Positions 60,286-64,000 of a stretch of 64,000 nucleotides of DNA are shown here, one piece after another (the stretch's first letter is position 1; every line of letters begins with the position of its first letter). The notes under the pieces are model-generated. The model had not been told where the DNA came from, made no database searches, and worked only from the letters and a program-made list of their open reading frames with translations. The stretch covers positions 2,790,001-2,854,000 of the forward strand of contig NZ_CP055481.1 in NCBI RefSeq assembly GCF_013705725.1, written 5' to 3'. The translations under genes and the position numbers were made by a program. The DNA is from Klebsiella sp. RHBSTW-00484 (GTDB lineage Bacteria > Pseudomonadota > Gammaproteobacteria > Enterobacterales > Enterobacteriaceae).

Positions 60286-60365
60286 GGTGAGAGATGTGAT
60301 GGCGATCAATAATGAAGGTGAATGATTGGTCTACGAGCAGGGGGATATATCAATGTGGCTGGGGG

Positions 60366-60402
60366 GCTACGGGTTCACCGCCATCTGCGGACAGGTAGCC
60401 CG
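60366..60402. repeat. Left half of an interrupted REP-like double hairpin
   Basis: GCTACGGGTTCACCGCCATC and TGCGGACAGGTAGCCCG. The same unit occurs uninterrupted at 61881-61946 with few differences. The right half of this copy resumes at 61791 beyond the inserted element. Confidence 0.8.
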
Positions 60403-60474
60403 ATGTGATGGACACCTCCCACCTTACGGCATCAGAACGTGCCAGACTGGAAGTGTTACCTGCAGTCCACAGGA

Positions 60475-60485
60475 GGAGGTGTCCA
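60475..60485 (+). promoter_or_regulatory. Inverted copy of the IS end repeat covering the transposase ribosome site
   Basis: GGAGGTGTCCA is the reverse complement of the left terminal repeat (60408-60420) and includes the GGAGG Shine-Dalgarno of the transposase. A transcript entering from outside could fold the two together and hide the ribosome site. Confidence 0.6.
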
Positions 60486-60487
60486 CC

Positions 60488-61510
60488 ATGAATATTAAAC
60501 GTATCGGTCTTGACCTGGCAAAAAATGTCTTTCAGATCCATGCTGTGGATCACCATGAACATGTCGTCGTGCGGAAATCTCTCCGCCGCGCCCACATGCA
60601 CGCTTATTTCTCTCAGCTGGCTCCCTGCACCATCGGGATTGAAGCCTGCGCATCATCCCACTACTGGTCCCGCGAACTCACCCGCATGGGGCATACCGTG
60701 CGCATTATTCCCCCGAAATTCGTCAAGCCTTACCTCAAAGGCAACAAGAATGATGCCAACGATGCCGAAGCCATCTGTGAAGCCATCAGCCGCCCCGCCA
60801 TGCGCTTCGTCGCGGTTAAGACAGAGCGCCAGCAGACCCTTCAGGCGGAGCATCGCGTGCGGGCCAGAGTGATAAAAAGCCGCACGGCGCTGTGCAACGA
60901 GATACGGGGCTTTCTGGGCGAATTCGGCGTGGTGCTGCCGGTCGGCATCAGCCAGTTGCGTAAGGCGCTGCCGGAGATACTGTCACAGCAGGAGCAGTGG
61001 GATGACCGGTTTATGCGCCTGCTGTGCGAGCTGGCCGAAGAGCTGCGGATGCTGGATGACCGGGTGGCGGGGCATGACCGGCGGCTCGCAGAGGCGGCGC
61101 GGGAAGATATCTGCATCCAGCGGCTGATGAAAATAGAAGGTATCGGCGTGATAACCGCCAGCGCGATGGTGGCGTTGTTGGGTGACGCGACGCAGTTTAA
61201 GAACGGTCGGGAGATGGCGGCTTATGTGGGGCTGGTTCCCCGGCAGCACTCAAGCGGCGGTAAGCAGCAGCTGGGGCATATCAGCAAGCGGGGTGACAGC
61301 TACCTGCGTACGCTGGTCATCCACGGGGCACGGTCAGTTCTGAAGACATGTGCAGGCAAAGAAGACCGGCGGAGCCAGTGGCTGCAGTCGGTGGCGGAAA
61401 GACGGAACCGGAATATCGCGACGGTGGCGCTGGCGAACAAGAATGTGCGGATAGCGTGGGCGGTGATGAGTCGCGGAGAAGATTACCATGGTTCACGGGT
61501 CGCCGGTTAA
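60488..61510 (+). CDS. IS1111-group DEDD transposase/recombinase
   Basis: This 340-aa protein has an N-terminal RuvC-like DEDD domain: Asp in IGLDLAKNVFQ, Glu in IGIEACASS, and Asp-x-x-Asp in KNDANDAEAI. The C-terminal transposase_20 domain has IEGIGVITASAMVALLGDA and VGLVPRQHSSGGKQQLGHIS with the catalytic Ser. The length is normal and the frame is open. It starts at MNIKRIGLDLAK with AGGAGG 12 nt upstream; an in-frame start further upstream would cross the terminal repeat and is rejected. In this family the enzyme works with a bridge RNA. Confidence 0.93.
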   Translation: MNIKRIGLDLAKNVFQIHAVDHHEHVVVRKSLRRAHMHAYFSQLAPCTIGIEACASSHYWSRELTRMGHTVRIIPPKFVKPYLKGNKNDANDAEAICEAISRPAMRFVAVKTERQQTLQAEHRVRARVIKSRTALCNEIRGFLGEFGVVLPVGISQLRKALPEILSQQEQWDDRFMRLLCELAEELRMLDDRVAGHDRRLAEAAREDICIQRLMKIEGIGVITASAMVALLGDATQFKNGREMAAYVGLVPRQHSSGGKQQLGHISKRGDSYLRTLVIHGARSVLKTCAGKEDRRSQWLQSVAERRNRNIATVALANKNVRIAWAVMSRGEDYHGSRVAG

Positions 61511-61595
61511 CCGACACCCCGTGAACCATGCAGTAAAAAGAGCAGTAACCCTGTCGTGAGATTGCGAAGCGATTTAGCGTGATGAGTAACCGGTA

Positions 61596-61740
61596 AGACC
61601 AGCACCTGAGAAATCCGGCCTGTCCGAAGGCTCCCTGCGAAGCAAAGCCGATAGCCCGAAAGGAAGCAGGTGCGCAGAACACATCATGGCCCGGGTACGA
61701 CGGTACCGAAAGAGAGGCCGGATATACGAACGCAACTTAC
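61596..61740 (+). ncRNA. Bridge RNA candidate of the IS1111-group element
   Basis: The region lies 3' of the transposase, where IS1111-group elements encode their bridge RNA. Loop 1 is closed by GCACCTG/CAGGTGC (61602-61608, 61667-61673) with an inner stem GGCT/AGCC. Its flanks hold CCTGTCCG (61619-61626), complementary to the target right side CGGACAGG, and TAGCCCG (61652-61658), identical to the target left side. Loop 2 has an inner stem GGTAC/GTACC. Its flanks hold CACATC (61680-61685), complementary to GATGTG of the left IS end, and ATATACG (61722-61728), identical to the right IS end plus core. All four meet at the CG core. Exact ends are not known. Confidence 0.75.
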
Positions 61741-61790
61741 CCTGGTGACTCACACAAAAAATAGCTTGCATCACGGGAGGTGTCCATATA

Positions 61791-61830
61791 CGGACAGGCG
61801 CGTTGAGCGCCGCCTCCGGGGAGTGTGCCG
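61791..61830. repeat. Right half of the interrupted REP-like unit
   Basis: CGGACAGGCGCGTTGAGCGC then CGCCTCCGGGG. The second hairpin of the unit (GGCGC/GCGCC) begins directly after the IS end. Joined to 60402 it rebuilds the unit. Confidence 0.75.
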
Positions 61831-61849
61831 GAGCTGATGCATCGGCGCG

Positions 61850-61946
61850 GTTTCTTCCCGGCTCGCACTACGTTTAGCCGGGCTACGGGTTCACAGCCGT
61901 CTGCGGACAGGTAGCCCGGACAGATGCGCCAGCATCGCCTCCGGGG
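61850..61946. repeat. Intact REP-like array with an unoccupied copy of the IS target
   Basis: CCCGGCTCGCACTACGTTTA then GCCGGG is a REP-like stem. It is followed by GGCTACGGGTTCACAGCCGT, CTGCGGACAGGTAGCCCGGA and CAGATGCGCCAGCATCGCCT. GGCTAC/GTAGCC closes the first stem and TCCGGGG closes the second. The junction TAGCCCGGACAG is the same as the occupied site except for the base after CAG. Confidence 0.75.
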
Positions 61947-61964
61947 AAAGCGCGTGTAATGTCG

Positions 61965-62999
61965 TTAGTTTTTACTCAAATCACTCAGCAAGAAGGCGAT
62001 ACTTTGCCCGGCGACCGTCTGCTCGAGTGCGATTTTGACGATAATCGTCAGCGGCACCGATAGTAGCATTCCTACCGGTCCCAGCAGCCAGCCCCAGAAA
62101 ATTAACGACAGGAATACCACCAGCGTTGATAACCCCAGTCCACGGCCCATAATGCGCGGTTCGAGGATGTTACCGAACACCAGGTTGATAATCAGATAGC
62201 CCGCCAGAACTACCAGCGCGTCGTACAAACCACCAAACACCAGCACCTGCAAAATCGGCGGGATTGCCGCGAGAACCGAACCAATATTAGGAATGTAATT
62301 CAGCGCGAAAGCTAACAGTCCCCACATAAAGGCAAAACGCACATCGAGCAGCACCAGCATTCCCCATACCACCAGGCCGGTTACCAGGCTGATGGCGGTT
62401 TTTAACACCAGGTAGTGGGAGACGCTATCGAGTGCGCGCTGAATCGCCCCCATGCCTTCCACCGGCCGCGACATCAGCTGTTGCAGCTTGGCGGGTAGCT
62501 GCGGGACTTCCAGCAGCATAAACACCACCGTCAGTAGCAGCAGGAAGATAGAGGACATCGCGTTTGAAAGCTGAGTGAGCAGACTGGTGACCAGAGTCAT
62601 TACTGCGTTAGGGTCAATATATTTATTAAGCTCAACCACCGAAACGGTAAAGCCGAAGCGCTGTAACCACGGCGCAATGGTCTGCATCGGTTCATAGAGA
62701 TAGTTGCGATACTGCGGCAGGGTACGCGCCAGCTCATTGAGAGAAGTCCCCAGCGAAGCCAACAGCACAACGGCAAGCAGGACAATCAGGCCCACCAGCA
62801 GTGAAATGGCCAGCACTCTCGGCACCCGACAGCGCACCATAAGCTGAACCAGTGGGTTAATCACTACCGCCAGAAACAGTGCCAGCACGAAAGGGACGAT
62901 GATATCCGCCGCGAAGCGAATGCCGGTCAGGATGATAACCATCATGCCGAGCATGATGACCATTTTTAAGCCGTTAAGCGTGATGATGGGTTTGGCCAT
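61965..62999 (-). CDS. tqsA: TqsA, AI-2 exporter family membrane protein
   Basis: This 344-aa AI-2E family protein has about seven to eight membrane helices, starts [20 protein letters not shown], and matches E. coli TqsA (344 aa) throughout, e.g. [20 protein letters not shown] and [20 protein letters not shown]. In E. coli TqsA affects export of autoinducer-2 and biofilm formation. An IS5-family copy lies 211 bp upstream; the sequence 63000-63210 still holds room for its promoter. In E. coli the neighbour is pntB; here it is the mdc operon plus IS1111 element. Confidence 0.94.

Positions 63000-63210: not shown

Positions 63211-64000
<790 letters not shown>

Follow-up and report, generated by a model that had tools for sequence, protein, structure and literature searches.

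A REP-dwelling IS1111-group insertion sequence with a predicted bridge (seek) RNA, and sister elements whose guides differ with their insertion sites

The window, i.e. the whole stretch of 64,000 nucleotides that was analysed, contains an IS1111-group insertion sequence whose downstream non-coding region probably yields a bridge (seek) RNA reading both a REP target and the element's own joined ends; from sequence comparisons, we put the probability of this reading at about 0.93. Its direct basis lies in the anatomy of the element, 27 insertions in one genome, the covariation of four guide segments across relatives, covarying stems, and sister elements whose guides differ with their sites. The features are collected in Table 1.

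Table 1. Features of the insertion sequence, its flanks and its predicted RNA, in window positions.
Feature	Position	Strand	Remarks
Whole IS1111-group insertion sequence	60401..61790	+	1390 bp; CG core assigned to left end; bounds common to 27 copies; 7/3 end rule
Left target half TAGCC plus core CG	60396..60402	+	same in 27/27 copies
Left end extension CGATGTG (donor, left-end half)	60401..60407	+	
Left subterminal inverted repeat ATGGACACCTCCC	60408..60420	+	
Transposase, 340 aa (DEDD_Tnp_IS110 + Transposase_20)	60488..61510	+	intact; PF01548 and PF02371
Downstream non-coding region	61511..61774	+	
Predicted bridge/seek RNA	61592..61745	+	from folds and covariation; length modelled on the long seekRNA (154 nt) of ISEc11
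Target-loop stem, 5' arm GCACCTG	61602..61608	+	helix 3, all 8 pairs changed on both sides
Right target guide CCTGTCCG	61619..61626	+	pairs with CGGACAGG
Apical hairpin between the two target guides	61629..61649	+	longer than in most relatives
Left target guide TAGCCCG	61652..61658	+	identical to left flank plus core
Target-loop stem, 3' arm CAGGTGC	61667..61673	+	
Left-end (donor) guide CACATC	61680..61685	+	pairs with GATGTG
Donor-loop inner stem-loop GGCC...GGCC	61688..61719	+	helix 6, 4 pairs, 1 changed on both sides
Right-end (donor) guide ATATACG	61722..61728	+	identical to right end plus core
Right subterminal inverted repeat GGGAGGTGTCCAT	61775..61787	+	
Right end extension ATA	61788..61790	+	
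Right target half CGGACAGG	61791..61798	+	remainder of interrupted REP comes next

The element is a member of the IS1111 group. According to the accessible part of PMC11187229, such elements have subterminal inverted repeats of 11-13 bp with a 7-bp left and a 3-bp right extension, and the window element follows this rule with a perfect 13-bp repeat and the extensions CGATGTG and ATA. The left extension and the right flank begin with the same base in 29 of the 30 elements of a first set of relatives (exception L087) and in 16 of the 21 elements of a second set (exceptions L101, L104, L116, L124 and L125). The transposase falls within the 330-350 aa of IS1111 DEDD transposases and carries their GL-P----SG motif as GLVPRQHSSGG at residue 248; its frame is open at 340 aa in all 27 copies of the genome, and it matches the NCBI model NF033542, 'IS110 family RNA-guided transposase', a protein family already called RNA-guided. 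The longer non-coding region lies downstream of the transposase gene, as in IS1111 elements, compared with 87 bp upstream, and the upstream RNA position of the IS110 group (IS621-like) is not found here. All 27 copies stand in one orientation at a specific site, as expected of the group, and, with one CG counted as part of the left end, no target sequence is duplicated, because the uninterrupted orthologous REPs have a single CG. A partial IS5-family transposase gene (NF033581) was also observed on the minus strand at 63358-63978, close to the window's right edge.

The sequence-only reading had proposed a bridge RNA with four guide segments downstream of the transposase, and all four words were found where it had placed them, as were the two flanks that they match (Table 1). 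When the 266-nt non-coding region was shuffled 100,000 times with its dinucleotides preserved, the two target words turned up together in 15 shuffles, the two donor words in 25 and all four in none, figures that overstate the rarity because the word lengths were picked after the fact; chance as the source of the four matches was set aside. The claim that the guide order is the same in both loops, with the complement first and the identity second, is correct if the donor is taken as the circle junction, in which the right end precedes the left end. The segments are complementary to both target strands with the top-strand complement first, as in known bridge/seek RNAs, and the donor-end guides are borne out by covariation in 32 elements, with one core base unmatched; both statements rest on sequence only. 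The convergence of all segments on CG was claimed too broadly: three of the four contain the full CG, but in the left end CGATGTG, CACATC takes in just the G of the core. The RNA base after CACATC is A where G would be needed for the core C, which is left unread by this segment, and in relatives with a C core the base after the left-end guide is likewise mostly A (exceptions L114 and L129). A CG core instead of CT had also been pointed out; CG is indeed present, but cores already vary, with C or T first and G or A second among the relatives, and modified cores have been tested in IS621 (PMC11208160, accessible text). In Rfam 15, no family reached its gathering score over 60300-62000, with two matches below it.

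The predicted RNA has a structure that covaries among the relatives. RNAalifold on 15 sequences gave an internal loop with one target guide on each side, between the closing stem GCACCTG/CAGGTGC and a capping hairpin; in the donor domain, only the four-pair GGCC stem beside the guides was recovered. In the structure of the alignment, 94.8% of the cells were paired and 16 of the 26 pairs had changes on both sides; the covariation score of 0.44 fell to 0.13 or less when the partners were slid by 1-3 columns, and none of 500 shuffles scored as high, all counted on the same alignment from which the structure was derived. The 154-nt window RNA folds slightly better than its shuffles (z -1.7; 9/200 as good) and the target domain better (z -2.8; 1/200 as good). 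The starts of the two target guides are 33 nt apart in the window (61619-61658) and in L037, the most divergent copy of the genome, compared with 23-28 nt in 24 of 27 relatives and 24-35 nt in the second set, and this wider spacing arises because the capping hairpin is longer. A conserved GATGG upstream (alignment A1, columns 17-21 with 121-125) can pair with CATC of the left-end guide; this pairing may close a multi-loop or hide the left-end guide until use.

Relatives were sought in several sources. The protein database gave two 99% entries and then relatives at 74-81%, several of them from Klebsiella, Salmonella and Leclercia, and a scan of species representatives with the protein gave 24 relatives (best 57%). 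The plasmid protein search had none at 60% identity or above among the matches listed (at least 5,000). The plasmid DNA search matched 399 records, with 63 covering at least 80% of the element and 16 at 80-90% identity; among the 30 matches listed, 68% identity was seen without an annotated gene under the match. For E. coli DNA, a match was found in 207 of 5,426 genomes, with seven covering at least 80%, all at 60-80% identity; three of these records were fetched (L175, L176 and L177), and no element ends were found in L177. The viral-contig scan yielded one 75% relative, the locus of which ends 12 bases after the match, and two further copies at 53% (L143, L145) were present in a congener.

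The first set comprised 53 relatives, of which 28 had both ends and 27 were used, giving 29 elements together with the window element and L037; its search for ends favoured repeats beginning with ATGG. The second set, fetched afterwards with a slightly wider search range, comprised 27 loci, 21 with ends and 20 used, and includes the near-duplicates L111/L122/L128 and L114/L129. In the 29 elements, the target guides matched their own flanks at a mean of 13.1 of 15 bases versus 10.3 when permuted, the highest of 20,000 permutations reaching 11.3, and in the 20 elements of the second set at 12.8 versus 10.4 (highest permutation 11.5). Own flanks were best or tied best in 25 of the 29 elements and strictly best in 19 (12/20 in the second set), with another element's flanks scoring higher in four; against 300 shuffles of each element's own flanks, 20 of the 29 fell below 0.05 and nine did not. 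A fixed-column alignment of 33 rows, of which 32 were used (L079, with a short flank, was dropped; L116 has masked bases), gave 197 of 224 matched bases for the left target guide (84 expected), 132 of 256 for the right target guide (83 expected), 170 of 224 for the left-end guide (144 expected) and 210 of 224 for the right-end guide (188 expected). The right target guide count is low because many rows are out of register by one base. Each of the four segments lay above all 5,000 permutations in these 32 IS1111 elements, which have mostly different targets, with the caveat that the statistics ignore relatedness and that some elements are near-duplicates or have a common target. The proposed bridge RNA is supported by this joint covariation of all four segments with flanks or ends. 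L102, a 60% relative from another bacterial family, sits at a TAGCC/CG site and has TAGCCCG as its left guide; for its right guide, TTCATCCG, an exact match would read TGCATCCG.

The 27 copies in the window genome comprise 26 at 98.5-100% identity and L037 at 78%. Insertion of other copies at sites unrelated to the guide had been named in advance as what would speak against the guide reading; every one of the 27 was found to have TAGCC followed by CG at its left side and CG at its right side, 26 of them, by eye, in REP-like flanks in which the right flank is half of the palindrome GTAGCCCGGACAGGCGC...GCGCCGCCTCCGGG, with L024 as the exception. Among the 26 window-type sites, all 13 target bases of TAGCC/CGGACAGG were matched in 17, while TAGCCCGGACAG was matched by 21 and TAGCCCGG by 25; the deviating right words are CGGACAGA (four copies), CGGTCAGC (L025), CGGGCAGG (L023), CGAACAGG (L032) and CGGGCAAG (L030), and that of L024 agrees with the guide only in the core and one more base. 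These near-identical copies would form a natural profile of the sites accepted by an IS1111 guide, in which the left half and the core are invariant and the right half is more variable, within a REP background that is itself mostly the same word. L024 (C1, about 5,515,000) breaks a protein-coding gene, the first piece of which matches ImpA_N of type VI secretion, and no Pfam family was matched by the second piece. Two copies, L015 and L031 (C1 69,059-72,029), share one direction and are separated by about 90 bases, and each is enclosed by a pair of target halves of its own. The orthologous intergenic stretch in three congeners (L131, L132 and L133) has REPs without the IS, and TAGCCCGGACAG with a single CG occurs in all three. 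In L131, the REP aligned with the target in the window has the sequence TAGCCGGGACAG, and L132 and L133 each have one REP to which both REPs of the window align; therefore, none of them offers a base-for-base empty site.

On sequence grounds, the best test of the guide reading is given by sister elements with the same ends. The transposases of these sisters are 76-78% identical to that of the window element, and their sites and guides differ together. One such sister, with a 78% identical transposase and unchanged ends, is present in seven copies in a congener (G625). It has TAGCCCG as the left guide, as in the window, and CTTATCCG as the right guide; its sites are TAGCC/CGGATAAG (four copies), CGGGTAAG (two) and CGGACAAG (one). 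In a genome of another genus (G738), the guides are CAGGCCG on the left and TTTATCCG on the right, and the five copies read, out of 29 candidates, lie at CAGGC/CGGATAAG (three), TAGGC/CGGATAAG (one) and CAGGC/CGGATAAC (one), i.e. four of five at CAGGC/CG, with the right guide one outer base off. Across five sister sets, the target loop changes with the site, but the right-end guide does not and is ATATACG throughout; as left-end guide, the window type has CACATC and the other four have AACATC, with one mismatch to GATGTG. In all five sets TTGC starts 25 nt before the right end, a weak -35-like box that may belong to a promoter at the circle junction. A frameshifted sister relic was observed beside 5S rRNA and kgtP, at the same place in two E. 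coli strains (L175, L176). Its right guide CTTATCCA stands beside TGGATAAG, with an 8/8 match only if the linker is 1 nt shorter, and the left guide departs from the flank at one base and from the core at one base; the fixed anchor of the five-set scoring misplaces this relic, resulting in a low score. Sister elements with the same ends thus carry different guides at correspondingly different sites, which supports the bridge/seek-RNA reading.

The guides of the sisters may also follow the REP words of their hosts. Uninterrupted TAGCCCGGACAG words number 111 in the window genome and TAGCCCGGATAAG words 13, compared with three and 25, respectively, in G625, one word having been searched as 12 bases and the other as 13; a REP pattern search at three mismatches was swamped. 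We consider the chances about even that enteric REP-dwelling IS1111 elements keep their ends and nearly all of the donor loop while the target loop is re-tuned, half by half, to the commonest REP word of the host, so that REP evolution would drive the evolution of the bridge RNA. Drift and chance transfer between hosts, without such re-tuning, could also produce the differences within the sister series, and we regard this as a serious contender at somewhat less than even odds. Only three multi-copy elements are available, and the 13 TAGCCCGGATAAG words here and three TAGCCCGGACAG words in the congener make availability skewed, not exclusive; against drift, whichever of the two counted words is more frequent is the one matched by the multi-copy element, in both genomes of the genus. 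L037 (C1 3,811,316-3,812,743) also speaks for drift or transfer, as its guide is not a full fit to its own site and does not suit the host's commoner REP word either. Its right guide GCTGGCCG has two mismatches, so that its own site is matched at 11/13, and it would suit the REP word TAGCCCGGYCAGC, which has 16 occurrences in the genome; in 15 of these, a T would require a G-T pair. The window-type guide fits the L037 site at 13/13, a better fit than its own, and it is possible that L037 was inserted in trans by a window-type RNA.

As to what chooses the REP, the transposase protein itself could recognise the palindrome, with the RNA matches as by-products. Such a view draws on the REP-like flanks of 26 of the 27 copies, on a REP population that mostly carries the target word anyway, and on the evidence for protein-determined REP choice in IS1397 and ISKpn1 that is cited in the accessible part of PMC1525189. 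An attempt to prove guide discrimination from the REP background inside the element's own genome fails, as this background already mostly matches the guide. Therefore, guide choice and REP preference cannot be told apart with the 27 copies alone, but they can with the cross-element data: guides and flanks covary in relatives with other targets, and sisters with 76-78% identical transposases change sites and guides together. L024, inserted in a protein-coding gene at a TAGCCCGG word, where only the left guide, the core and one more base are matched, also speaks against recognition by the protein. Altogether, recognition by the protein appears very improbable. It is scarcely credible that the two target-like words are captured REP fragments without a guide role, which their occurrence in REPs might suggest, because they occupy the two sides of an internal loop that covaries, run in opposite senses, and stand where relatives that have other targets bear words from their own flanks.

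Under the preferred reading of a bridge (seek) RNA, transposition would proceed as follows, with RNA production, binding, the circle and the chemistry expected by analogy with PMC11187229 and PMC11208160. Circle formation would join the element ends, and the transposase and the RNA would be transcribed from a putative promoter at this junction. The RNA would then be bound by the DEDD transposase. In loop 1, CCTGTCCG would pair with the top strand right of the cut and TAGCCCG with the bottom strand left of it, while in loop 2 the left end of the joined circle would be paired by CACATC and its right end by ATATACG. With loop 1 paired to the REP and loop 2 to the joined ends, the circle and the REP would be brought together and recombined at the common CG, in one orientation and without target duplication.

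An RNA-guided element of this kind is already known, and the sequence-only reading, which treated bridge RNAs as established for IS621 of the IS110 family, overstated the novelty: guide RNAs of IS1111 elements were demonstrated experimentally in 2024 as seekRNAs with the same guide order, including that of the REP-targeting ISPa11 (PMC11187229, accessible text). Going by the published description of ISEc11, ISKpn4, ISPst6 and ISPa11 there, the window element shares with them the downstream non-coding region, the subterminal repeats, the 7/3 ends and a top-strand complement placed before the bottom-strand match, and differs from them in its target word TAGCC/CGGACAGG. It further differs in that four segments were tested by covariation and 26 near-identical copies are present in one genome, whereas its RNA is predicted. 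The IS621 bridge RNA is alike in having two loops, for target and donor, and a REP target; as far as the accessible text of PMC11208160 goes, it differs by its CT core and its target ATCAGGCCTAC, and the IS110 group by an RNA usually upstream of the transposase gene and a reversed guide order. ISPpu9, ISPpu10 and ISPa11 are also REP-associated in all copies (7/7, 7/7 and 6/6, accessible text of PMC1525189), but live in Pseudomonas hosts, and the comparison covers their REP association. The natural redirection between ISEc11 and ISXne4, with 72% identical transposases and different target words in RNA and flank (PMC11187229, accessible text), resembles the present series, in which, by comparison, several sisters all keep to REPs and are distinguished by the REP variant. 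By title or abstract start, no literature on guides adapted to host REPs was found among the open-access matches listed, with subscription papers and most preprints outside this scope. What is new here, as judged from sequence, is a natural series of predicted REP-matched guides.

This series compares guide and site while the ends stay the same and the protein has changed by about a quarter, and it provides natural guide pairs for testing the reprogramming of compact RNA-guided recombinases. With it, one could test whether the guides of resident elements are selected by the repeat families of the host.
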